Source of the DNA: Actinomycetes bacterium
GTDB lineage: Bacteria > Actinomycetota > Acidimicrobiia > Spongiisociales > UBA5794
NCBI GenBank assembly: GCA_023336815.1
Contig: JAMBLJ010000048.1
Coordinates: 1-36,434, forward strand
Length of the DNA stretch: 36,434 nt
Direction of reading: 5' to 3'
A program made the position numbers and the translations under genes. The notes below the pieces were generated by a model, which was not told the DNA's origin, made no database searches, and was given only the letters and a program-made list of their open reading frames with translations. This document shows positions 8,550-21,314 of the stretch, piece by piece. The number at the start of each line of letters is the position of its first letter. The first letter of the stretch is position 1.

Positions 8550-9191
8550 TCAGCCCGTTCCTTGAGGGCGTGCGACGATCTCGCGCCAGATGCCATGACG
8601 CGAGACGTCGATGATCTCAAGGCCGGCAGCAGCAACGTTCTCCTCGGTGCGGCGGTTCGCACGGAAGCCGAACACCCGCCGGGTCACGGCACTAGCGACG
8701 TCAGCCATCCAACCCAGAATGCGGTTGGTCGGTCGTACATGTTCCAGAAGCAAGATACGTCCATCCGGCCTCACGACCCGTGCGACCTCACGAAGACCCT
8801 GCACCGGATCAGCAACCGAGCAGAACACACACGTGGCGAGCGCGGTGTCGAAGGTGTTGTCTTCGAACGGGAGCTCCTGTACGTCTGCCTCAAGAATATT
8901 CGTTCGCACGGGAACGGTCTTCGCTTGATTTCGAGCTCTCTGCAGCATCCCGGTGGAGACATCGATTCCGACGACGTGCACACCATCCGCGTAGTGCGCC
9001 AGATTCTTACCTGTTCCAACGCCGACCTCGAGAACTTCTCCCGAAGCCTTCTCCACCATTCGCTTGCGTCGCTTCCTTGTCCCCATCATCTCCATCGGCG
9101 CGTCATAGAGGTTGTAGATGCTGGCAAGCCGGTTATAGCGACGGGTCACCGCAGCTTGTTCCGTTGCTACATCCAGGTTGTCGGGTTCCAC
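8550..9191 (-). CDS. Class I SAM-dependent methyltransferase
   Basis: A 213-residue class I methyltransferase of the UbiE/Methyltransf_11 type. Motif I is VLEVGVGTGKNLAHY, an acidic residue follows in VGIDVSTGM, then ADVQELPFEDNTFDTALATCVFCSV (motifs II/III) and a post-domain VRPDGRILLLEHVR. The N-terminus (VTRRYNRLASIYNLYDAPMEMM) resembles phospholipid or quinone methyltransferases. The GTG start lies five bases after the stop of the YHS gene, so the two form one operon behind the CsoR-like dyad at 9464-9485. The substrate is unknown; the metal-linked promoter makes a role in metal or metalloid stress, or in lipid change under that stress, worth considering, but this is inference only. Confidence 0.85.
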   Translation of the reverse strand: MEPDNLDVATEQAAVTRRYNRLASIYNLYDAPMEMMGTRKRRKRMVEKASGEVLEVGVGTGKNLAHYADGVHVVGIDVSTGMLQRARNQAKTVPVRTNILEADVQELPFEDNTFDTALATCVFCSVADPVQGLREVARVVRPDGRILLLEHVRPTNRILGWMADVASAVTRRVFGFRANRRTEENVAAAGLEIIDVSRHGIWREIVARPQGTG

Positions 9192-9196
9192 GGACG

Positions 9197-9424
9197 TCAG
9201 TCGCTGTCACCCGAACAGCACCCACAACCGTTGGATGTCCCGCTTTGGCTGTCCGACGAGGAACCGACGCCAGCAACGTCAAGCCGATTCGGGTACGCAT
9301 CGGGATCCTTGATGAACGTTGTTCGGCACCCCGGCGCGCAGAAAGCAACATCATCGTGACCGGGAGCGCGAAGCGCTGTGTCATCTACGGTCATGCCGCA
9401 CACCGGATCGAGGAGTTTTGTCAT
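9197..9424 (-). CDS. YHS-domain protein with Cys-rich tail
   Basis: A 75-residue protein opening with the YHS signature D-P-V-C-G-M (residues 6-11), continuing with VAFCAPGCRTTFIKDPDAY, and ending in a short Cys cluster (GCGCCSG). YHS domains are small metal-linked modules often found alone or at the N-terminus of copper P-type ATPases. The extra C-terminal C-x-C-C could bind a soft metal. A good GGAAGGAA ribosome site lies upstream of the ATG at 9424, and a near-perfect GC-rich dyad of CsoR type sits 40 bases upstream. It is the first gene of an operon with the methyltransferase. Small size and metal-responsive promoter together suggest a copper or other soft-metal buffer or sensor role. Confidence 0.82.
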   Translation of the reverse strand: MTKLLDPVCGMTVDDTALRAPGHDDVAFCAPGCRTTFIKDPDAYPNRLDVAGVGSSSDSQSGTSNGCGCCSGDSD

Positions 9425-9463
9425 GTGCTATTCCTTCCTAGCGTGGTCAACATGATAGCCAAC

Positions 9464-9485
9464 CCCTACCCCTACCGGGGTGGGG
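9464..9485 (-). promoter_or_regulatory. CsoR-like operator upstream of the YHS/methyltransferase operon
   Basis: A 22-base GC-rich dyad: arms CCCTACCCC and GGGGTGGGG around the four-base centre TACC, with nine base pairs matching except one T-G. CsoR/RcnR-family copper and nickel sensors bind just this kind of C-run/G-run inverted repeat. It lies about 40 bases before the YHS start codon, and a possible -10 (TATCAT on the minus strand, about 9453-9458) lies between, which is the expected place for repression. No csoR gene is in the window, so the regulator would be encoded elsewhere. Confidence 0.6.
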
Positions 9486-9556
9486 CATATGCACGTGGGG
9501 ACCAAGCCTCCTATCGGGAGAACCACCGCCTTGAGGGGCGGCAGGGCAGGCACCTG

Positions 9557-11446
9557 TCATATTTCGACGTGGATACCGATCTCAAGCGATCTGTCGGGTG
9601 GGAGATGGAAATAGCGTGATGGCAGCGACGCATTCCGTGCCATGAGGGCGAAGAGTTTCTCTCTCCACAACATCATTCCCGGCCGCCTTGTCGCAAGGAC
9701 CGTCTCTCTCCCAAGCACCCAGACCGTGTCATCCGAATCGAATCCGAAGTCGTTTCGGATGATGCCCGACAGAGCCTCTGGAACATCCGGTTTCTCCATG
9801 AATCCGAAGCGGAGCACGATCTGGAAGAACCCGTTGCCGAGCGGCCAGACCTTGGCCCTTTGCGACACCGGCACGCGAGGCTCGGCGGCGGTCAACACCG
9901 AGAGCACAACGACTCTTTCGTGAAGCACCTCGTTGTGGCGCAGGTTGGCGAGTAGCGCAGGCGGAGCCACCCCGGGTCGAGAGAACATGTACACAGCCGT
10001 GCCAGGCACGCGAACAATCTCACTCTCAGACACGGATGCGATGAAACGCTCGAAGGACGAACTCGTCTCGCGGAGACGTGCCGCGAGCAGCTGTCGACCC
10101 TTCTTCCAGGTTGTCATAGCGACGAAGATCACCGCAGCGATCAGAATAGGGAACCAGCCGCCATCGGGAATCTTGAACAGGTTGGCACCGAAGTAGGCGA
10201 GATCCACGACCAGAAACGCACCCGTAACAGCAGCTGCGGCCGCGATCGACCAGTTCCAACGATCGCGCATGACGACCAGGATGAGCACTGTTGTAACCAC
10301 CATCGTTGTCGAAACGGCGATACCGTACGCTGCAGCCAGAGCGCTCGCTGATCCGAATCCAACCACGAGGCCGACCGCTGCCACCATGAGGGCCCAGTTG
10401 ATGGCTGGGATGTACACCTGACCTGATTCACTCGCTGAGGTGTGGAAGATTCGGATACGCGGGAGATACCCGAGCTGTACAGCCTGCATCGTTAGGGAGA
10501 ATGCCCCGGATATGAGTGCCTGGGAGGCTATGACCGTTGCAAAGGTCGCAAGGATTACGAGAGGCCAGACTGCCCACGACGGCGCCATGAGATAGAAGGG
10601 GTTGCTCACAGCCTCAGGGTTGGCGATCAGAAATGCTCCCTGACCGAAGTACGTGAGAACGAGTGAAGGAAGTACCAGGCCGTACCAGGTGATCCGTATC
10701 GGCGTCCTTCCGAAGTGCCCCATGTCCGCATAGAGCGCTTCGCTCCCTGTCACAACCAGGAACACCGAGCCCAGTGCGAGAAACCCACGGAACCCGTTAT
10801 TGGAGAAGAACCGAATGCCGTGGATCGGGTTGAGGGCCACGAAGACACCGGGATCCTTGATGAGCTGCCCTATCCCCAGGACAGCCATGGTGAGGAACCA
10901 CACGATCATGACCGGACCGAAAATCCTTCCCACCGTTCCGGTGCCGTGGCGTTGTATGAGGAAGAGGCCGATCAAGATGATCACTGAGATCGGGACCACG
11001 AACGGCTCGAGGGCTGGTGTCGCGACGTGGATGCCTTCGGTCGCGGACAGGACAGAGATGGCAGGCGTGATCATCCCGTCGCCGTACAACAGCGCCGTCC
11101 CGAACAAACCGACCACGATGAGGACCCACCTTCGACCTGTTGTTGTCTGCTGACGTGGGGCAACGAGAGCAACGAGCGCAAGGATCCCACCCTCACCGTC
11201 GTTGTCGGCGCGCATGACCACGAGCAGGTACTTGATCGAGATGACGATGAGCAGCGACCAGAAGATCAGTGACAGGACACCGAGGACGTTCTCCTCTACG
11301 ACAGCTATGTCCTGGGTCACGAACGACTCCCGGACTGCATACAGCGGGCTCGTTCCGATGTCGCCGTACACGATGCCGAGAGCTCCAAGGGATAGCGCCG
11401 CGACCCGACCCGACTGCTTGAGCGACGGTTTACTGGACTTCGACAC
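9557..11446 (-). CDS. kup: Kup-type low-affinity potassium transporter
   Basis: A 629-residue KUP/HAK/KT transporter. The N-terminal GALGIVYGDIGTSPLYAV is the family's hallmark, and about 12 membrane segments follow (for example VLSLIFWSLLIVISIKYLLVVM and GTALLYGDGMITPAISVLSA, which carries the conserved YGDG-MITPAISVLSA block). A soluble C-terminal domain of about 150 residues ends the protein. Kup moves K+ into the cell with protons. The GTG start at 11446 has an AAGGGGG sequence just before it. It is alone in its unit; the upstream 184-base interval holds three perfect inverted repeats (see separate entries). Together with the K+ channel and antiporter at 23788-25898 it is one of three cation-balance genes in this window. 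Confidence 0.95.
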   Translation of the reverse strand: MSKSSKPSLKQSGRVAALSLGALGIVYGDIGTSPLYAVRESFVTQDIAVVEENVLGVLSLIFWSLLIVISIKYLLVVMRADNDGEGGILALVALVAPRQQTTTGRRWVLIVVGLFGTALLYGDGMITPAISVLSATEGIHVATPALEPFVVPISVIILIGLFLIQRHGTGTVGRIFGPVMIVWFLTMAVLGIGQLIKDPGVFVALNPIHGIRFFSNNGFRGFLALGSVFLVVTGSEALYADMGHFGRTPIRITWYGLVLPSLVLTYFGQGAFLIANPEAVSNPFYLMAPSWAVWPLVILATFATVIASQALISGAFSLTMQAVQLGYLPRIRIFHTSASESGQVYIPAINWALMVAAVGLVVGFGSASALAAAYGIAVSTTMVVTTVLILVVMRDRWNWSIAAAAAVTGAFLVVDLAYFGANLFKIPDGGWFPILIAAVIFVAMTTWKKGRQLLAARLRETSSSFERFIASVSESEIVRVPGTAVYMFSRPGVAPPALLANLRHNEVLHERVVVLSVLTAAEPRVPVSQRAKVWPLGNGFFQIVLRFGFMEKPDVPEALSGIIRNDFGFDSDDTVWVLGRETVLATRRPGMMLWREKLFALMARNASLPSRYFHLPPDRSLEIGIHVEI

Positions 11447-12107: not shown

Positions 12108-12240
12108 GCTCTTCTCCGTTGGCATGCGCTCAACCATCACAGTAGTCACATAGTTTGAGCATAAGTAATAGGGCCATTCGGCACCTTTCTCGAAGCGAGG
12201 GGGCAACGTACAGTTGCCTTGTATCCAGCGAAGGAGCCCG
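12108..12240. promoter_or_regulatory. Divergent promoter region, hydrogenase operon and hybE-like gene
   Basis: This interval must hold the promoters of both units. It contains a perfect inverted repeat GGCAAC-GTACA-GTTGCC at 12202-12218, 22 bases before the small-subunit ATG, and a shorter CTCG-AAG-CGAG dyad just upstream at about 12190-12199. Either could be an operator or a leader hairpin. The AAGGAG at 12231-12236 is the ribosome site of the small subunit. No -35/-10 pair stands out. Confidence 0.4.
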
Positions 12241-13380
12241 ATGCCCGTTCTCGCCGCACCACCCCGCTCGGTCCTTGATAGCCTCCTGAACAGCGGGGTC
12301 ACCCGCCGTCGCTTCCTCGAATTCTGTACCGCGACAACGGCCGTCCTGGCTCTCCCTATCAAGTTCGCACCCCAGATAGCCCAAGCACTCGAGACAGCCG
12401 AGAAACCGACGGTCATATGGCTCGAGTTCCAGGATTGTGCAGGGAACACGGAATCGTTCCTGCGCGCCAGAGCACCAGGAGTCGGTGACATCCTCCTCGA
12501 CGTGCTCGACGTTGAATACCACGAAACGATCATGGCGGCGGCAGGCGACCAAGCCGAGGCTGCCAAGGAGGCGGCCATTGCCAAAGGTGGCCATATCGTG
12601 ATCGTCGAAGGATCCGTTCCCACCGCAGCCAACGGCGTGTACTGCACAATCGGCGGCAAGACGGCGGTGCAGATCCTCGCCGAGGCCACGATGGGTGCGG
12701 CAGCAGTCATCAATACCGGTACCTGCTCCAGCTACGGAGGAATCCCTGCAGCGTCTCCGAACCCGACGGGGGCGACCAGCGTACCGGATCTCGTTTCTGG
12801 CGTTCCTGTGATCAATCTTCCCGGCTGCCCCGTGAACGTGGACAACGTCGTTGCGACCATCGTCCACTACTTGACCTTCGGTGCGCTTCCAGCAGTCGAC
12901 GGCCATGGCAGACCACTCTTCGCCTATGGCGAACGCATCCACGACCACTGTGAACGGCGAGCTCATTTCGACGCTGGCCAGTTCGTCGAAGAGTGGGGGG
13001 ATGAAGCCCACCGGAAGGGCTGGTGTCTGTACAACATGGGTTGCAAGGGCCCGAGTACATTCCACAACTGCCCCACGCAGAGATGGAACGGAGGGACGTC
13101 GTGGCCGATCGGTGCAGGACACGGATGCGTTGGGTGCTCGGAACCAGACTTCTGGGACACGATGACCCCCATCTACGGGCGCCTCCCTGCACCACCCGGC
13201 TTCGGCGTCACCACAAGTGTCGACAAGATCGGTGCTGGCATCGTCGGCCTGACAGCCGCCGGATTCGCCGCCCACGGCATCGCCAAGACGGTCCAACGCA
13301 AACGAGCCGAGAGAGCCAACGAAACGCCCATCGAGATCGAGACCACCGCCGCACCCGGTGAGGAAGGAGCGGAACGATGA
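12241..13380 (+). CDS. [NiFe]-hydrogenase small subunit, Tat-exported, Asp-Cys-x-x-Asn proximal motif
   Basis: A 379-residue group 1-type small subunit. The Tat signal is T-R-R-R-F-L-E at residues 21-27. The proximal-cluster motif is D65-C66-A-G-N69-T-E-S instead of the usual C-x-x-C, with Cys162 (GTCSSYGG) and Cys196 (PGCPVN) retained. Distal ligands are H234, C237, C262 and C268, and medial ligands C277, C296 and C299. A hydrophobic helix near residues 330-348 is the C-terminal membrane anchor. The protein passes electrons from the NiFe site to the cytochrome b. The ATG at 12241 (AAGGAG four bases before) is preferred; a TTG at 12214 would add nine residues. The gene opens the operon and overlaps the large-subunit ATG by four bases. 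An Asp/3-Cys proximal cluster is known from the actinobacterial-type enzyme of Ralstonia eutropha. Confidence 0.93.
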   Translation: MPVLAAPPRSVLDSLLNSGVTRRRFLEFCTATTAVLALPIKFAPQIAQALETAEKPTVIWLEFQDCAGNTESFLRARAPGVGDILLDVLDVEYHETIMAAAGDQAEAAKEAAIAKGGHIVIVEGSVPTAANGVYCTIGGKTAVQILAEATMGAAAVINTGTCSSYGGIPAASPNPTGATSVPDLVSGVPVINLPGCPVNVDNVVATIVHYLTFGALPAVDGHGRPLFAYGERIHDHCERRAHFDAGQFVEEWGDEAHRKGWCLYNMGCKGPSTFHNCPTQRWNGGTSWPIGAGHGCVGCSEPDFWDTMTPIYGRLPAPPGFGVTTSVDKIGAGIVGLTAAGFAAHGIAKTVQRKRAERANETPIEIETTAAPGEEGAER

Positions 13381-15095
13381 GCAGGGTCATCGTTGATCCC
13401 ATCACCCGGATAGAGGGCCACCTGAGGATCGAAGCCGAGGTCGACGGGGGCGTGATCACAGACGCTTGGTCTTCATGCACGATGTGGCGAGGCATCGAGA
13501 AGATCTTGAACGGCCGCGACCCGCGTGATGCTTGGTACTTCACGCAACGGATCTGCGGAGTCTGCACCACCGTGCACGCACTCGCCTCCGTTCGCACCGT
13601 GGAGAACGCGCTTGGAATCGTCCCACCGCTCAATGCCCAGCTCATCCGTGAACTGATAACAGCGACCCAGTTCGTCCAGGATCATGTCGTCCACTTCTAC
13701 CACCTGCACGCACTCGACTGGGTGGACATCGTGTCTGCCCTCGATGCTGACCCTGCTGCCACGGCGACGCTGGCACAATCGATCTCGGACTACCCGAAAT
13801 CGAGTGTGGGCCATTTCACGGCTGTCAAGGAGCGGCTGGCGGGTTTCGTTTCGCGAGGACAGCTCGGTCCGTTCACCAACGGCTACTGGGGCCATCCGGC
13901 GTACAAGCTCCCACCGGAGGGAAACCTGCTCGCCGTGAGCCACTACCTGGATGCGCTCGACTTCCAGAGACGCTACATCGAGATGCACGCCATCCTGGGT
14001 GGCAAGAATCCACATCTCCAGACCTACCTCGTTGGTGGCATGGCGATCCCCATCGACCCGAACAGCCAAAACGCCATCAACGCCGACACGTTGGCACAGC
14101 TCGGATCTCTCCTTCAAGAGGGACTCGACTTCGTCACCCAGGCCTACATTCCGGATCTGCTGCTGGTCGCATCGTTCTATCCAGAATGGACCACGATCGG
14201 TGGAGGTCTCGGGAACTACATGTCCTACGGCGACTTCCCCCTCGGGCAGCAGAACCCTTCCATGGCACCGGACGATCTGTTCCTGCCTCGTGGCATCATC
14301 CTCAACAAGGACCTGTCGACGGTCCTCCCCATGGAACCGGAAAAGATATCTGAGTACATATCGCACTCGTGGTACTCGTATGAGGCAGGCGACAACGTCG
14401 CCCTTCCACCGATGGAAGGCGAAACCACACCGAACTACACAGGACCGGAGCCGCCGTATACACAATTGAACACGGACGACAAGTACTCATGGCTGAAGTC
14501 GCCTCGTTATGACGACACGGCAATGGAGGTCGGTCCACTGGCACGTATGCTGGTCGCGTTCGGCGCTGGACACGAGCGGGTGCAGGAACTCGTTGGTGCA
14601 GTGCTGGCCCAACTCGGGGTCGGTCCGGAGGCTCTCTTTTCAACGCTTGGGCGCACTGCCGCTCGCGGTATAGAGACGCAAGTGCTTGCCGAGCACTCCA
14701 TCACATTACTCGAGCGACTCACGGCGAACATCGGTGGTGGAGATCTCGAGATTCACAACTCCTACCGGTGGGACCCGAAGGATTGGCCCTCTGAGGCATC
14801 CGGATTCGGCATGCATGAGGCACCACGCGGCGCCCTTGCACACTGGATCAAGATCGCGAACGGCGAGATCGCCAGCTACCAGGCCGTTGTTCCCTCGACC
14901 TGGAACGGGGGACCCCGGGACGGGAGCGGCAAACGCGGTGCGTACGAAGCAGCATTGCTCGACACGCCGATAGCCGACCCCGAACGACCACTCGAGATCC
15001 TCCGGACCGTGCACTCGTTCGACCCATGTATGGCGTGTGCCGCACACCTGATCGACAAGGATGGGAACCCGCTCGTGGAGGTGACCGTGCTGTGA
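13377..15095 (+). CDS. [NiFe]-hydrogenase large subunit precursor
   Basis: A 572-residue large subunit with both metal motifs: L1 R-I-C-G-V-C at residues 58-63 (then TTVHALAS) and L2 D-P-C-M-A-C-A-A-H at 549-557. The four Cys bind Ni and Fe. After His557 come 15 residues (LIDKDGNPLVEVTVL) that the maturation protease should remove once nickel is in place. The opening VIVDPITRIEGHLRIEAE is the family's standard N-terminus. It binds and splits H2 at the NiFe(CN)2CO site and forms a heterodimer with the small subunit, with which it would be exported through Tat. ATGA overlaps on both sides tie it tightly to its neighbours. Length and motifs are complete; no sign of damage. Confidence 0.96.
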   Translation: MSRVIVDPITRIEGHLRIEAEVDGGVITDAWSSCTMWRGIEKILNGRDPRDAWYFTQRICGVCTTVHALASVRTVENALGIVPPLNAQLIRELITATQFVQDHVVHFYHLHALDWVDIVSALDADPAATATLAQSISDYPKSSVGHFTAVKERLAGFVSRGQLGPFTNGYWGHPAYKLPPEGNLLAVSHYLDALDFQRRYIEMHAILGGKNPHLQTYLVGGMAIPIDPNSQNAINADTLAQLGSLLQEGLDFVTQAYIPDLLLVASFYPEWTTIGGGLGNYMSYGDFPLGQQNPSMAPDDLFLPRGIILNKDLSTVLPMEPEKISEYISHSWYSYEAGDNVALPPMEGETTPNYTGPEPPYTQLNTDDKYSWLKSPRYDDTAMEVGPLARMLVAFGAGHERVQELVGAVLAQLGVGPEALFSTLGRTAARGIETQVLAEHSITLLERLTANIGGGDLEIHNSYRWDPKDWPSEASGFGMHEAPRGALAHWIKIANGEIASYQAVVPSTWNGGPRDGSGKRGAYEAALLDTPIADPERPLEILRTVHSFDPCMACAAHLIDKDGNPLVEVTVL

Positions 15096-15805
15096 GCACC
15101 GAGACCACACCAGCTACACCGGCACCGGATGCAGCGCTCGGGCTTGGCCCAACGCTCGAGTGTGTGACGGTCAAGGTATGGGAATTGCCCGTGAGGGTGA
15201 TCCATTGGACCGTCTTCCTGAGTGTTGTCGCCTTGTCGATCACCGGCTTCTACATCGGAACCCCGTTCGTTCGCGTGAGCCCCGAACCGGGATTCCTGAT
15301 GGGTTGGATGCGGGCGATCCACAACCTGGCGGCTTTCGTGTTCATCGCAGCCATTCTTGCCAGAGTCATCTGGGCATTCACTGGCAACCAGTGGGCTCGA
15401 TGGGATCAGTTCATTGCAGTCTCGAAGGAACGGAGAACGAACGGCTGGGACGGGTTCCGCTTCTACGCGTTCATGACGAGCAAGCCACCTGCTGTTCTGG
15501 GACACAACGCTCTTGCTGGGGCAACCTACCTCGTCCTCTTCGCGATGTTCCTGACACAAATCGTCATGGGACTCGCCCTGCTCTCACTGGAGACCGAGGG
15601 ATTCCTCGCCTCGACGACCGGCTGGGTGTTCACCGTGCTCCCCATCCCCTGGGTTCGATTCATTCATCACCTCATCATGTGGCTGACATGGGGGTTCGTC
15701 GTGCACCATCTCTACTCAGCCATCCTGTTCGACACCGAGGAGAAGACCGGCGTTCTCTCCTCCATCTTCACTGGATGGAAGCGGATGCCGGTGGATCGAC
15801 TGTGA
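15092..15805 (+). CDS. Hydrogenase cytochrome b subunit (HyaC/HupC-type)
   Basis: A 237-residue di-haem cytochrome b of the Ni/Fe-hydrogenase type. After a short Pro/Thr-rich N-terminus come VKVWELPVRVIHWTVFLSVV (membrane segment with His), MRAIHNLAAFVFIAAILARVIWAFTGNQW, TYLVLFAMFLTQIVMGLALLS and WVRFIHHLIMWLTWGFVVHHLYSAILF; His residues in R-V-I-H-W, A-I-H-N, F-I-H-H and V-V-H-H are the likely haem ligands. It links the periplasmic-side hydrogenase to the quinone pool. The start is GTG at 15092, overlapping the large-subunit stop (GTGA). Its presence argues for a respiratory uptake enzyme rather than a soluble one. Firm family call. Confidence 0.93.
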   Translation: MSTETTPATPAPDAALGLGPTLECVTVKVWELPVRVIHWTVFLSVVALSITGFYIGTPFVRVSPEPGFLMGWMRAIHNLAAFVFIAAILARVIWAFTGNQWARWDQFIAVSKERRTNGWDGFRFYAFMTSKPPAVLGHNALAGATYLVLFAMFLTQIVMGLALLSLETEGFLASTTGWVFTVLPIPWVRFIHHLIMWLTWGFVVHHLYSAILFDTEEKTGVLSSIFTGWKRMPVDRL

Positions 15806-16287
15806 CGGCGCCGCACCTCGTCCTCGGGCTTGGCAACGAGCTGTTCACAGACGAGGGTATCGGCGTGGTCGTCTCTCGCCGGTTCGCAGATCTGGCGATA
15901 CCCGGAATCGATGTCGTCGACGGGGGAACACTTGGAATCGCGCTCCTTCCGACGGTCGCCGGCCGGAGATCGATCCTCATCTTCGATGCGATCGTCGCCA
16001 CAGACGCACAGCCGGGCGAGATCATCGTGCTCGAGTCAAGCGAGGTCAGGCAAGGGAGCCGGATAATGTACTCGGCCCACCAACTCGGCATCAGTGAGGT
16101 GCTCGTCGCTGCTCAGCTCGCGGGTGGGCCAGAGCCGAACGTTGCCGCCGTCGGTCTGGTGCCGTACTCACTCGAAACCGGATACGGGGTGACGGTCGAC
16201 GCTCAGAATCGGATTCCCGCGATGCTCGAGCAAGGGATGGAGATACTCGCCGCATGGGGAGCACTTGAGGTAGCAGCTGATGCATGA
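15802..16287 (+). CDS. Hydrogenase maturation endopeptidase (HyaD/HupD-type)
   Basis: A 161-residue protease of the HybD/HupD family. The landmarks are LGLGNELFTDEGIGV at the N-terminus, VDGGTLGIALLP with the nickel-sensing acidic region, IFDAIVA, and SAHQLGISEVLVAAQLAGGPEPNVAAVGLVP with the conserved His. By family knowledge it senses nickel in the large subunit and then cuts after the last His of its DPCxxCxxH motif, releasing the 15-residue tail seen at the end of that protein. The GTG start at 15802 overlaps the cytochrome gene's stop by four bases, and its own stop overlaps the hypA start by eight. The protease is gene four of the operon, the order found in Hya- and Hup-type clusters. 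Confidence 0.92.
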   Translation: MTAPHLVLGLGNELFTDEGIGVVVSRRFADLAIPGIDVVDGGTLGIALLPTVAGRRSILIFDAIVATDAQPGEIIVLESSEVRQGSRIMYSAHQLGISEVLVAAQLAGGPEPNVAAVGLVPYSLETGYGVTVDAQNRIPAMLEQGMEILAAWGALEVAADA

Positions 16288-16615
16288 ACGGGCACCGGTC
16301 GGTATGGAAGCAGCCAAGCTCATCGCTCAACTGACGGAAACTTCGGCACCCCCATCAGTCGTGAAAGTTGCGATCGCTGCTGACGTCAAGGTCGATATCG
16401 CACGCGACGCATGGGACGCCGCTGCAGACGGCACCATCCTCGAAGGCGTTCACATCGAGTGGGTCCTCAGGACCGCCACACTCGCATGCCTCGCATGCGG
16501 GCACAACTATTCCGGTGACAAACTCGCCCAGTGTCCCAAGTGTGGGGGCGATGGACTCATCGTGAAAGAACCACCGATCGCGGAAGTCGTGGCGTGGAGT
16601 CCCGCGACATCATGA
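16280..16615 (+). CDS. hypA: Hydrogenase nickel-insertion accessory protein HypA
   Basis: A 111-residue HypA. It begins with Met-His-Glu, the His2 being the known nickel ligand, and continues with a helix (AAKLIAQLTETSAPPSVVKVAIAADVKV). The zinc finger is C-L-A-C-G-H-N-Y then C-P-K-C-G-G. HypA brings Ni2+ to the large subunit, normally with the GTPase HypB. No hypB is present in this operon or window. The start overlaps the protease gene by eight bases and the stop overlaps hypF by four. Length is normal. The Zn motif and His2 are intact, so the protein should be functional. Confidence 0.93.
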   Translation: MHERAPVGMEAAKLIAQLTETSAPPSVVKVAIAADVKVDIARDAWDAAADGTILEGVHIEWVLRTATLACLACGHNYSGDKLAQCPKCGGDGLIVKEPPIAEVVAWSPATS

Positions 16616-18873
16616 CGATCGTTCAACAAGGCGCCAGGACGCGCTTTGTCGTTACCGGAATCGTCCAGGGCGTTGGATTCCGCCCATTCGTCCACGGTCT
16701 CGCCATTGAACTCCGACTGGCCGGATTCGTCGGGAATGATTCGAGCGGCGTGTTCATCGAAACCGAGGGCCCGCCCGCTGTTCTCGAGGAATTCCGTCGA
16801 CGACTCTACGAGGAGGCGCCTCCCGCTGCGCGGATCCAGACGGTCGAAGAAACGTCGATGGCAACCCTCGGGGCCAGCGGCTTCTCGATCGCCCCGAGCG
16901 TTGCGAGAAGTTCCGGTTCGGCGCTCGTCTCGCCTGACCTTGCCACGTGTGATGCCTGCATCTCAGAACTCGAGAACCCGACCGACCGGCGATATAGGTA
17001 TGCATTCGTCAACTGCACCAACTGCGGCCCCCGATTCACGATCACGCTCACTATGCCGTATGACCGTCCCCAGACGACGATGGATCGGTTCACGATGTGT
17101 GAGCGATGTCACAGCGAGTATGAGAACCCGCAGGATCGCAGGTTCCATGCCCAGCCGAACGCCTGCCCGGATTGTGGACCTGAAGTGTGGTTCGAGAGAA
17201 ATGGGAGTCGCGTCACTGGACACGCGGTCACTGCTGCCAGGAAGGTTGTTGCAGACGGAGGCGTGGTGGCTGTGAAGGGGCTCGGTGGATTCCACCTCGC
17301 GTGCGATGCCTTCTCCGAGTTAGCTGTCTCCCTGCTCAGGGAGCGGAAGGGTCGCGTCGACAAGCCATTTGCGGTCATGGTCGCCGATCTCGACACGGCG
17401 CGCACCATCGCCCATCTCACTGATGACGAGGAAGAACTCCTTATGTCCCGTGAACGCCCCATCACCCTGCTGCCGAAGAAGCATGGAACAGGGCTGTCTG
17501 AAATAGTTGCACCCTGGACCGGACACATCGGCGTGATGGTCGCCTACACACCGCTACACAGGCTCCTGATTACGCCTGGGGATGTATGGGTGATGACCTC
17601 TGGGAACCGATCCCAGGAGCCGATTGTCAACCGCAACGAAGAGGCCCGCTCCAGGCTCGCCTCTCTCGCAGACGCCTTCGTGATGCACGACAGGGACATC
17701 CACGTGCCCGTGGACGATTCGGTCATGCGAAAACTCGATGGAGCTGATTTGCCGGTGCGGCGCTCCAGGGGGTATGCACCGTTCCCCGTCGCGCTGCCGA
17801 TCGACGTGCCACCCCTGCTCGCAACCGGCGGCGAGTTGAAGGCTACGTTCTGTCTGGCCTCTGGAAGACACGGGTTCATGAGCCAGCACATCGGCGACAT
17901 GGAGAACCTCGAGACCCTCGATGCGTTCAGTGCAGCGGTCGGGCACATGCAGGGGCTCTTCCGCGTCACGCCACAGATGTTCGCGACCGACCTGCATCCC
18001 GGCTATCTATCGGGACGTTGGGCGGAACGTATCGCGGATGGCCGGCCCGTGGTTCGTGTCCAACACCACCACGCACACATCGCCTCCGTCATGGCCGAAA
18101 ACGGCGTTACCGCTCCGGTGATCGGCTTCAGCTTCGACGGGACCGGCTACGGGACGGACGCGACGATTTGGGGGGGCGAGGTTCTCATAGCGGACTTCAC
18201 GCGATTCGAACGCTTGGCCCATCTCGCAACGGCACCGCTCCCGGGAGGGGACGCAGCAGTTCGTCGACCCTACCGCATGGCGATGGCACATCTGTGGGCA
18301 GCGGGGATTCCATGGAGTCTGGACCTGCCACCTGTCGCTGCGGCTTCGCCCGAGGAACGTCGGGTGCTGCTCACCCAGCTCGAGCGGAACCTCAACGTCG
18401 TTCAGACGTCATCCATGGGGCGACTATTCGATGCTGTGGCGGCGCTCGCGGGGGTCCGTCAGGAGGTCACCTACGAGGCGCAGGCAGCTCTCGAATTGGA
18501 AGCTCTTGCTGATGCCACGGACGATGATCACTACGTGTTCGAGGTCAGGGATCCTGTGATCGATCCCGCTCCTGTGCTGCGGTCGGTCATAAGGGACACC
18601 CAGGCGGGTGTTCCCGTTGGTGTCGTTGCGATGCGGTTCCATCGCGCTGTTGTCGACATGATCGTGTCCGTCGCGATCACGCTCCGCGACCGTGAAGGGA
18701 TCGGTACGGTTGGTCTCAGCGGCGGCGTGTTCCAGAACGTGACACTGACCGGCCTTGCACGACGCTTGCTCGAGGAGAACGGGTTCCGGGTGCTGACACA
18801 CCGTCTGGTACCACCGAACGACGGCGGCCTGGCCCTAGGACAGGCGATGGTAGCTTCGGCGAAAGTGAGGTAG
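16612..18873 (+). CDS. hypF: Carbamoyltransferase HypF
   Basis: A 753-residue HypF with all expected domains in order. The acylphosphatase domain opens with VTGIVQGVGFRPFVHGLA (residues about 11-28). Two zinc fingers follow: C-D-A-C…C-T-N-C-G-P-R-F and C-E-R-C…C-P-D-C-G-P. Next come a YrdC-like domain (VVAVKGLGGFHLACDA…RKGRVDKPFAVMV) and a Kae1/TobZ-like C-terminal domain with QHHHAHIASVMAENG. It converts carbamoyl phosphate and ATP to the carbamoyl-adenylate that HypE turns into cyanide ligands for the NiFe centre. The ATG at 16612 overlaps the hypA stop (ATGA). The hypC start is four bases after its stop. Confidence 0.96.
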   Translation: MTIVQQGARTRFVVTGIVQGVGFRPFVHGLAIELRLAGFVGNDSSGVFIETEGPPAVLEEFRRRLYEEAPPAARIQTVEETSMATLGASGFSIAPSVARSSGSALVSPDLATCDACISELENPTDRRYRYAFVNCTNCGPRFTITLTMPYDRPQTTMDRFTMCERCHSEYENPQDRRFHAQPNACPDCGPEVWFERNGSRVTGHAVTAARKVVADGGVVAVKGLGGFHLACDAFSELAVSLLRERKGRVDKPFAVMVADLDTARTIAHLTDDEEELLMSRERPITLLPKKHGTGLSEIVAPWTGHIGVMVAYTPLHRLLITPGDVWVMTSGNRSQEPIVNRNEEARSRLASLADAFVMHDRDIHVPVDDSVMRKLDGADLPVRRSRGYAPFPVALPIDVPPLLATGGELKATFCLASGRHGFMSQHIGDMENLETLDAFSAAVGHMQGLFRVTPQMFATDLHPGYLSGRWAERIADGRPVVRVQHHHAHIASVMAENGVTAPVIGFSFDGTGYGTDATIWGGEVLIADFTRFERLAHLATAPLPGGDAAVRRPYRMAMAHLWAAGIPWSLDLPPVAAASPEERRVLLTQLERNLNVVQTSSMGRLFDAVAALAGVRQEVTYEAQAALELEALADATDDDHYVFEVRDPVIDPAPVLRSVIRDTQAGVPVGVVAMRFHRAVVDMIVSVAITLRDREGIGTVGLSGGVFQNVTLTGLARRLLEENGFRVLTHRLVPPNDGGLALGQAMVASAKVR

Positions 18874-18877
18874 AGCG

Positions 18878-19171
18878 ATGTGTCTCGGGATACCAGGGAA
18901 GGTCATCGAAATCACAGGTGAGGACTTCGTCCGCACCGGCAAGGTCGACTTCGATGGCATCGTCAAGGAAGTTAGTCTCGCCTATGTTCCCGACGTCGGT
19001 ATCGGCGACTACGTGATCGTTCACGTCGGCTTCGCCATCACGCAACTCGATGAGGCATCTGCCCACGAGACCCTCGCTCTGCTTCGCCAGCTCGATGTTG
19101 TCAGGGAGGAACTCGACCCCGAGGTCGCACTGGCCGCACAGCGGGCTCGAGCGACGGGGAATGCGACGTGA
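18878..19171 (+). CDS. hypC: Hydrogenase assembly chaperone HypC
   Basis: A 97-residue HypC/HupF/HypG chaperone. The start M-C-L-G-I-P-G-K is the family signature; Cys2 binds the iron carrying CN and CO. The conserved V-H-V-G-F-A appears near the middle. HypC works with HypD to carry the Fe(CN)2CO unit to the large subunit. It is four bases after hypF with a GAGCG stretch before the ATG, and its stop overlaps the GTG of hypD by four bases. A complete gene of normal length. Confidence 0.94.
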
Positions 19172-20271
19172 AGTATCTCGATGAGTTCCGTGATCCTGAG
19201 GTCGCGCTTCGCCTCATCGAAGAGATCAAGGAACTTGCCACGCGCCGCTGGGTGCTGATGGAGGTCTGCGGAGGACAGACCCACTCCATCATTCGCAACG
19301 GAATCGACCAGCTGCTTCCCGATGCGGTTGAGATGGTCCACGGACCCGGATGTCCCGTATGTGTCACCCCCCTCGAAACGATCGACAAGGCGCTCGCGAT
19401 CGCCGCCCGTGACGACGTGATCTTCTGCTCGTTCGGAGACATGCTCCGCGTTCCCGGTTCCGACGAGGATCTCTTCCAGGTCAAGGGTGGGGGTGGTGAC
19501 ATCAGGGTCGTGTACTCGCCGCTCGACGCTGTGGCTATCGCCAAGGACAATCCCGACAAGGAGGTCGTCTTCTTCGGCATCGGGTTCGAGACCACGGCAC
19601 CTGCGAACGCAATGGCGGTCTATCAGGCGAGCCAGGATGGGCTCGAGAACTTCTCGATGCTCGTATCACACGTTCTCGTGCCACCAGCGATGTGCGCGAT
19701 CCTCGATTCGCCACACAATCGTGTCCAGGCATTCCTCGCCGCAGGACATGTCTGTTCCGTGATGGGGTACGAGGAGTACTACGCGATCTGTCAGAAGTAC
19801 AAGACGCCGATCGTCGTCACCGGTTTCGAGCCGCTCGACCTTCTCCAGGGAATCAAGGCAGCCGTGATTCAGCTCGAAGACGGAAAGGCAGAGGTCCACA
19901 ATGCCTACCAGCGTGCTGTCCGCCCTGAGGGAAATCTACCTGCAAGAGAGATGATTGCCGACGTGTTCGCCGTTACGGACCGAACATGGCGGGGCATCGG
20001 GATGATCCCGGTCAGCGGCTGGAAGCTGTCAGATCGCTACCGGGAGCTCGACGCGTCTGTGCGTTTCTCTGTCGAAGGGATCCAGTCGAAGGAGTCGGAG
20101 CTCTGCCACGCCGGGGAGGTTCTCCAGGGCACGTTGAAGCCGGACGAATGCCCGGCCTTCGGCAAAGAATGCACACCACGCACACCCCTTGGCGCGCTCA
20201 TGGTCTCCAGCGAAGGCGCTTGTGCCGCCTACTTCCACAGTGGACGGTTCGCGAGGGCGGTTGCCTTATGA
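19168..20271 (+). CDS. hypD: Hydrogenase formation protein HypD
   Basis: A 367-residue HypD. Seen in order are [27 protein letters not shown] (the G-P-G-C-P-V-C motif with the redox Cys pair), [24 protein letters not shown], and a C-terminal [4Fe-4S] Cys set ([44 protein letters not shown]). HypD is the scaffold on which cyanide and CO are added to iron, with HypC. The GTG start at 19168 overlaps the hypC stop; the hypE ATG overlaps its stop by four bases. Complete with no damage. Confidence 0.96.
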
Positions 20272-21314
20272 CGATCGATGGCTGGACATGTCCGATACCA
20301 CTCCGCAACCAGCCCAACGTGGTGATGGGACATGGCGGAGGTGGCATGCTGAGCGCGGAACTCATCGAGCACCTCTTCCTCCCAGCGTTCGGGGGTACGA
20401 GGCTGGCGGACATGGCAGATGCCGCTCTCCTGGACCTGCCTCAGGGACGAGTCGCGTTTTCCACCGATTCGTTCGTCGTCCGTCCGCTGTTCTTCCCTGG
20501 CGGGAATATCGGCGAACTTGCGATCAACGGCACCGTCAACGATCTCGCCATGCGAGGCGCGAAGCCTCTGTACATGTCTGTCGGGTTCATTCTCGAGGAA
20601 GGCCTGCCCCTTAGTGACCTCGGCATGATCGCTGAGTCGATGGCGGCAGCCGCCAAGCAGGCCGACGTGGAGATCGTGACAGGAGACACGAAGGTCGTCG
20701 ACCGGGGCCACGGCGATGGCATCTACATCAATACCACAGGGGTTGGCACCGTCCCCGCCGGTATCGACATCGGACCAAGCCGGGTCACGCCAGGCGACGT
20801 CATCATCGTCTCAGGCACGATCGGGGACCATGGGATCGCAATAATGAGTGTGCGCGAGGGTCTCGGCTTCGAGGCAGACGCCGTCTCGGATACCGCCCCG
20901 CTCAACGCCATGGTCGCCGACCTCGTGGAAGCCGACCTAGACGTACACGCGTTGCGCGATCCAACCAGAGGCGGCCTAGCGGCCACTCTCAACGAACTCG
21001 CAGCCTCCTCCGGCACAGGGATAGTTATCGACCAGGACGCAGTCCCCGTACGGCGCGTTGTGGCCGCGGCCTGCGAGATACTCGGGCTGGATCCGATGTA
21101 CGTCGCGAACGAAGGAAAGCTTGTCGCATTCGTCCCCGAAGAACACGCTGAGGAAGCTCTCTCGGTCATCCGGTCCGAGACGTACGGCGGTGAAGCAGCG
21201 ATCATCGGGAAGGTTGTTGGCGAACATCCTGGCATGGTCGTAGCGACGACACCGCTCGGCACCACGAGGGTGGTCGACATGCAGGTCGGTGAGCAGCTCC
21301 CGCGAATCTGCTGA
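20268..21314 (+). CDS. hypE: Hydrogenase expression/formation protein HypE
   Basis: A 348-residue HypE of the AIR-synthetase/PurM fold. The N-terminal [22 protein letters not shown] is the ATP-binding start, [23 protein letters not shown] and [16 protein letters not shown] follow, and the protein ends in L-P-R-I-C, the C-terminal Cys that is carbamoylated by HypF and dehydrated to a thiocyanate. This is the last gene of the coupled operon (ATGA overlap with hypD). A possible terminator stem lies about 25 bases after its stop. The C-terminal Cys is intact, so the CN synthesis pathway is complete. Confidence 0.96.

Follow-up and report, generated by a model that had tools for sequence, protein, structure and literature searches.

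Our analysis points to a small copper-response operon that would be repressed by CsoR and encode a copper-binding YHS protein together with a methyltransferase aiding the cell under copper stress, a reading to which we give a probability of roughly 80%. Judging from sequence, control by copper through CsoR is very likely, and the YHS protein probably binds the metal. The genes lie within a 36,434-nucleotide stretch of DNA, analysed whole and referred to here as the window (Table 1). Known copper defence consists of export, sequestration, and oxidation, to which a SAM-dependent methyltransferase controlled by a copper repressor would contribute a step of chemical modification. The first-pass annotation, made from the DNA letters, had called a metal-responsive YHS-methyltransferase pair a module it did not recognise, and we likewise found no published description of the pair in PMC full text, which omits most subscription-journal papers. 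A CsoR-controlled copper operon is of a known kind; the pairing and the cargo, above all the methyltransferase, were not found described.

Table 1. Positions of the features discussed (window coordinates unless a locus is named)
Feature	Position	Strand	Remarks
CsoR-type operator (predicted), 22-base C-run/G-run dyad	9464-9485		plus strand reads CCCTACCCCTACCGGGGTGGGG
Family core ACCCCNNNNGGGGTGGGG, exact, 18 bases	9468-9485	+	within the 22-base dyad
Possible -10 element TATCAT	9452-9457	-	by eye, between operator and gene
Shine-Dalgarno-like AGGAAGGA	9432-9439	-	by eye, ahead of the YHS start
kup	9557-11446	-	upstream of the 132-base gap
YHS/TRASH-type small protein	9197-9424	-	ORF, 75 aa; Asp6/Cys9/Cys29/Cys33 and CGCC tail
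Class I SAM-dependent methyltransferase	8550-9191	-	213 aa; GTG start at 9191
Second CsoR-family gene, genome G000, contig C264	L059:4674-4988		without copper His/HxxxC; adjoins a rhodanese-like gene

The predicted operator and the CsoR-family regulators

A 22-base dyad of a C-run and a G-run had been placed 40 bases before the YHS gene; it is present in the 132-base gap between kup and that gene, with 39 bases separating it from the YHS ATG (position 9424, minus strand). Like an experimentally defined CsoR site, the dyad is pseudo-palindromic and contains G or C runs four or more bases long. One such site, that of TtCsoR, has the architecture CCCCACCCC-N4-GGGGTGGGG according to the accessible portion of PMC10318464. 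When the TtCsoR site was compared without gaps with the whole 36-kb window, the dyad was the top match at 18 of 22 positions, and the runner-up reached 15 of 22. Against a box derived from the csoR promoters of relatives the dyad scores 14 of 14, which none of 300 letter shuffles of the 200 bp upstream attained.

The 18-base core (ACCCCNNNNGGGGTGGGG) occurs exactly at two places in the 3.0-Mb genome versus none for the reversed control, the other place being upstream of a copper P-type ATPase (TIGR01511, 540.8 bits against a cut-off of 397). A looser 12-base pattern (TACCCCNNNNGGGGTR, one mismatch allowed) gave 16 places in the genome versus 38 for its reversed control; because it is not enriched, this pattern is uninformative, and only the exact, longer core carries information. 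An inverted-repeat search of positions 9380-9560 reported no repeat, probably because the outer arms of the dyad are offset by one base, and our assessment of the dyad accordingly relied on alignment and on counting patterns. A scan of positions 9380-9600 for sigma-70 consensus promoters returned nothing; in several relatives, a TATACT abuts the box. By the tests run, positions 9464-9485 are a predicted CsoR operator. The first-pass assignment of the dyad to the kind bound by CsoR and RcnR sensors is thus borne out by the match to the TtCsoR site, by the enrichment of the core, and by its retention at csoR promoters.

That retention emerged from searches across related genomes. A 20-base form of the box gave 20 matches in 50 genomes of the family and none for the control: 13 precede csoR-copZ-copA, three precede copper ATPases, and two precede YHS genes, with one of the remaining two lying shortly beyond the end of a copper-type ATPase gene and the other before genes that have no assigned name. 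The 18-base form, searched in 137 genomes of the order, gave 89 matches (86 places, three of which were counted on both strands) versus 12 for the reversed control. Of these 89, 43 are upstream of a CsoR-family gene at a distance of 350 bp or less, according to a gene list that leaves out the small fragments G000 C31 and G003 C281:1814, and 46 lie elsewhere. Within one genome (G024), the csoR box scores 14 of 14 and the box of the YHS-methyltransferase pair 13 of 14, marking a common box type.

Adjacent YHS-methyltransferase pairs are found in five genomes from three genera of one family (the genome studied here, G000, together with G002, G034, G007, and G024), and all five are preceded by an operator box of 13 to 14 of 14 positions. 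Conservation of the dyad upstream of homologous pairs, which the first-pass annotation had proposed to look for, is therefore complete in this set, and the box also stands before csoR in relatives. The YHS gene can stand alone: G026, in which no methyltransferase homologue was found at E 1e-40, has two lone YHS genes (L048:9313-9600 and L049:10592-10846), both with a box of 13 to 14 of 14. As a separate observation, a small membrane protein of G007 (L248:1501-2114) has a CsoR-type box ahead of its gene and is possibly another copper-regulated protein; by eye, it resembles a methyltransferase neighbour in G039 and G046 (L108:6279-6914), the latter protein having no Pfam match.

The first-pass annotation had tied its reading to the presence of a CsoR-family gene in the genome. 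There are two, on contigs C31 and C264, the former a truncated copper-type gene before CopZ and CopA, and of the metals put forward at that stage copper is the one supported. Across the order, 90 of 138 genomes hold at least one gene of this family. The C31 gene sits at the contig start and is truncated by the contig end, with CopZ and then CopA downstream; the fragment scores 28.1 bits against a Pfam cut-off of 22.8 and matched none of the NCBIfam models. It shows HVETC (HxxxC), that is, the His and the second Cys of copper CsoR, while the first Cys position and the gene's own promoter lie beyond the contig end; full-length members of the clade have the first Cys. By motif, the fragment resembles the clade whose own promoters carry the operator box.

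We read 30 CsoR-family loci of the order and classed 29 by motif, L128 being out of frame. H-x-E-T-C was found in 17, with the best box N4-spaced in 13 of them, and H-x-R-H-C in the other 12, with the best box N3-spaced in 10. The operator in the window has N4 spacing, as in the copper-type (H-x-E-T-C) clade. The C264 gene was labelled CstR-like because of its missing His and its rhodanese-like neighbour; its protein is nearest the copper-sensing RicR model, at 53.3 bits, far below the cut-off of 175. Its own start carries a differently spaced box, TACCCCCCGGGGGTA (L059, position 4952). A site on contig C105 of the same genome (CACCCCCGGGGGTATA, L058:6564) resembles the C264 box and may mark a second member of that regulon.

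The YHS protein and the gene neighbourhoods of the methyltransferase

The YHS ORF ends in NGCGCCSGDSD, so the C-x-C-C tail reported at first pass is there, as CGCC near the C terminus, and the methyltransferase does begin five bases after the YHS stop, its class I assignment resting on PF08241 (88.3 bits versus a cut-off of 21.2). The YHS assignment fared less evenly. Asp6, Cys9, Cys29, and Cys33, the four ligand residues, are invariant in 10 homologues, but the window protein scores 21.0 bits against PF04945, below the gathering score of 30.3, making the call weaker than had been implied; among four relatives scanned, only L051:7017-7316 passes, at 30.8 bits. In several relatives the tail is longer and rich in Cys and His. 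A structure model of the window protein (mean pLDDT 71.5) shows a core predicted with fair confidence and a tail that is disordered. A fold search of this model against the PDB gave nothing significant (best E 1.8), and a profile search for solved relatives found none (best E 0.42). Elsewhere in the window, positions 12214-21314 hold a [NiFe] hydrogenase cluster, with the small subunit recognised by PF14720 and PF01058 and, by ORF reading, a large subunit, a cytochrome b-like protein, and HypF-, HypD-, and HypE-like proteins.

Of 138 genomes searched in the order, 21 hold the methyltransferase itself (E 1e-40 or better), and its neighbourhood was counted at 20 loci, that of G053 being cut by a contig end and left out. 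Markers were YHS, P1B-type ATPase, CopZ, cupredoxin, multicopper oxidase, four-helix-bundle protein, DUF305, YdhK, and DUF302. At least one of them lies within 7 kb at 16 of the 20 loci, on references that included three YHS sequences and one multicopper oxidase from the loci under test, versus none of 20 control methyltransferases, which were Methyltransf_11 loci hand-picked before their neighbours were seen, from 12 genomes also holding this enzyme (20 genomes searched). Without counting YHS and multicopper oxidase, 13 of the 20 loci keep a marker. A P1B-type ATPase alone is within 7 kb at 10 of 20 loci versus none of the 20 controls, these ATPases being recognised by similarity to copper ATPases, with zinc or cadmium types perhaps among them. 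CcdA-like genes appear within the same distance at seven of 20 loci versus none of the controls.

Outside the order, five of 21 more distant homologues (from 20 of 24 phylum genomes with a homologue, and from G256 of the class) have a copper marker. Within the close family the link to copper is strong, and beyond it weaker; the four order loci without a marker, taken together with the low count outside, suggest that the family may serve several uses, copper among them.

Across the loci the methyltransferase is the constant part, and its partners vary among YHS, DUF302, DUF3105, and cupredoxin. The strict adjacent pair accounts for five of the 20 order loci, and since other loci pair the methyltransferase differently, the pair as such may be incidental. 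In G096, the box precedes a copper-type ATPase, DUF3105, and the methyltransferase. G021 has, on one strand, csoR, YHS, a CopA with a YHS part (apparently frame-broken), cupredoxin, and the methyltransferase; YHS precedes CopA in both G021 and G042. Cupredoxin genes are directly beside the methyltransferase in G021, G042, G031, and G011. The copper operons of G021, G042, and G011 are without the box (9 to 10 of 14 positions), and G042 gave no CsoR-family match. We also observed, in G039 and G046 (L108:6994-8085 and L109:7056-8163), a CsoR-type box followed by a DUF302 protein and the methyltransferase, DUF302 there replacing YHS.

Relatives of the methyltransferase are present in 523 plasmid records, and five of seven that we inspected, taken from 30 listed of the 523, are near copper or heavy-metal genes. 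On two Cytobacillus plasmids, the methyltransferase is beside, or one gene from, a four-helix-bundle copper protein. The Deinococcus relative has a copper ATPase and a cupredoxin nearby; the Rubrobacter relative a P-type ATPase, a metal-sensitive regulator, and a copper ion binding protein; and the relative from Thermococcus, an archaeon, a heavy-metal ATPase and a TRASH protein. Near the Jeotgalibaca relative there are DUF302 and DUF305 genes only and no clear copper gene, and the Methylocystis relative has no copper-type neighbour. TauE/SafE genes are near two of the plasmid relatives (one from Cytobacillus and that from Deinococcus).

Proposed mechanism and the substrate of the methyltransferase

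In the mechanism we propose, apo-CsoR on the operator would block the promoter, and binding of Cu(I) to CsoR would release it. Asp6, Cys9, Cys29, Cys33, and the Cys-rich tail of the YHS protein would then serve to bind or traffic copper in the cytosol, and under copper stress the cell would benefit from a SAM-dependent methylation carried out by the methyltransferase. Our preferred guess for the substrate, a doubtful one, is a small thiol or sulfur species whose methylation would keep it from reacting with copper. It is suggested by the CcdA-like neighbours, by the TauE/SafE genes near plasmid relatives, and by a presumed resemblance to the thiol methyltransferase TMT1/METTL7. METTL7B acts on sulfide, as stated in the available part of PMC7921093.

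Conversion of phosphatidylethanolamine to phosphatidylcholine, induced by copper and carried out by a phospholipid N-methyltransferase, was the first functional guess from the fold. The amine of phosphatidylethanolamine can bind Cu(II). PmtA of Rubellimicrobium thermophilum with lipid (8ys9) is the nearest solved structure by profile (E 9.4e-24), and a Foldseek search of the methyltransferase model (built from seven sequences, mean pLDDT 82.5) also places it closest, with E 6.9e-17, TM 0.77, and 28% identity in the structural alignment. The model includes a predicted long N-terminal helix, and in PmtA homologues the N-terminal helix binds membranes, according to excerpts of PMC12139422. The guess was set back by phosphatidylserine decarboxylase (PF02666), the usual enzyme making this lipid, which was found in one of the 20 methyltransferase-bearing genomes searched and not in the other 19; among the 11 of these genomes with completeness of 90% or more and contamination of 5% or less, none gave a match, a result that concerns that route only. 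The NCBIfam PmtA model (NF045882) gives 74 bits against a cut-off of 390, and the MenG/UbiE quinone methyltransferase model (TIGR01934) likewise falls short, at 74.2 versus 158.35. One relative, moreover, is on an archaeal plasmid, and phosphatidylethanolamine-type lipids are not usual in archaea. Because the usual enzyme making the lipid was not found in 19 of 20 genomes, we consider this substrate unlikely. We would also be surprised to find the methyltransferase modifying a protein of its own operon, for example at a Cys or Lys in the YHS protein or a cupredoxin, so as to tune metal binding: the five-base gap to YHS and the cupredoxin neighbours in four genomes would suit such an arrangement, but with the methyltransferase constant and its partner changing between loci, no one protein substrate fits them all.

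Two further alternatives concern the signal and the chemistry, and both appear remote. If the enzyme methylated a metalloid (arsenic, selenium, or tellurium), the copper box would reflect shared metal-stress control; weak ArsM-type matches (at most 57 bits, rounded) lean that way, as do genes read as arsR-like and arsenite-permease-like in the vicinity of the genome's csoR operon and similar ones near some methyltransferase loci. The ArsM models are missed by such a wide margin, however (NF040539, 57.2 versus 240 bits; NF008823, 48 versus 263 bits), that metalloid methylation was set aside as very improbable. Nor is Cys121 conserved even within the order: a CxxC (Cys121-Cys124) seen in the first seven sequences was considered as a metal site and dropped, Cys121 being Ser, Thr, or Ala at nine of 20 order loci, and only Cys124 is kept, in all 53 aligned sequences listed. 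It is more improbable still that the operator belongs to another CsoR-family sensor, such as a CstR-like persulfide sensor or an RcnR/FrmR-like one, with the operon answering sulfide, nickel, or aldehyde. The C264 gene, with its rhodanese-like neighbour and without HxxxC, would provide such a sensor, but a CstR-like regulator was rejected for this operator because the box type differs: C264's own box is differently spaced, the operator has the N4 spacing of 13 of 17 copper-type promoters whereas the other clade has N3 in 10 of 12, and the sole other genomic core site precedes a copper ATPase.

Returning to a copper-responsive operon with a small sulfur-containing substrate, we tentatively extend the proposal beyond this lineage. 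The class I methyltransferase branch may be a regular, unrecognised part of bacterial and archaeal copper resistance, switched on by CsoR in this lineage and placed with CopA, cupredoxin, YHS, DUF302, or DUF3105. It would protect cells by methylating a small molecule that reacts with copper, probably a thiol or sulfide, and would be convergent with an unrelated membrane methyltransferase that takes the equivalent slot in proteobacterial copper islands. If this is true, two enzyme families converged on one copper-protective methylation. The system lends itself to testing: it comprises a single operator, two small genes, and a defined regulator, and its relatives include ones from named strains of Cytobacillus, Deinococcus, and Thermococcus.

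Comparison with known copper systems

The closest regulatory parallel is with cso operons (csoR-copZ-copA), including those of Thermus thermophilus, where TTHA1719 is TtCsoR, and of M. tuberculosis csoR. The operator agrees with the TtCsoR site at 18 of 22 positions, and the same box precedes csoR-copZ-copA in relatives; unlike in cso operons, the genes predicted to be controlled here are those of a YHS protein and a methyltransferase, not of a chaperone and an exporter. The Sulfolobus copT-copM-copA cluster (PMC3600143, as excerpted) is similar in that a small metal-binding protein is made with copper export genes, much as YHS precedes CopA in G021 and G042. It differs in its regulator, which in the archaeal system is a TRASH-domain protein, and in that the cluster as described in those excerpts has no methyltransferase; here, we find a YHS protein with a Cys-rich tail and a CsoR box.

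The YHS domain of a Mycobacterium phlei adenylyl cyclase is a probable copper-sensor module whose proposed ligands are one Asp and three Cys, according to the accessible text of PMC4626032. Asp and three Cys stand at equivalent places in our YHS protein and are the residues kept throughout its 10 homologues. In the cyclase, as that text presents it, the YHS domain is fused to the enzyme that it switches, whereas here it is a separate protein. The methyltransferase, for its part, has both its closest fold and its closest solved sequence in PmtA (R-type, 8ys9), but it departs from PmtA in its 28% identity, in missing the model cut-off, and in that the usual substrate pathway was not found in 19 of 20 genomes.

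Isoprenylcysteine carboxyl methyltransferase is a membrane protein of another family. An enzyme annotated as of this type is encoded in Alteromonas islands with the order merR-copA-cupredoxin-hypothetical-isoprenylcysteine methyltransferase, as given in the available part of PMC8478169. These islands, as described there, are unlike the present operon in the type of enzyme and in being under MerR control, and like it in that a methyltransferase follows copA and cupredoxin, the same slot that our enzyme occupies in G021, G042, G011, and L072.
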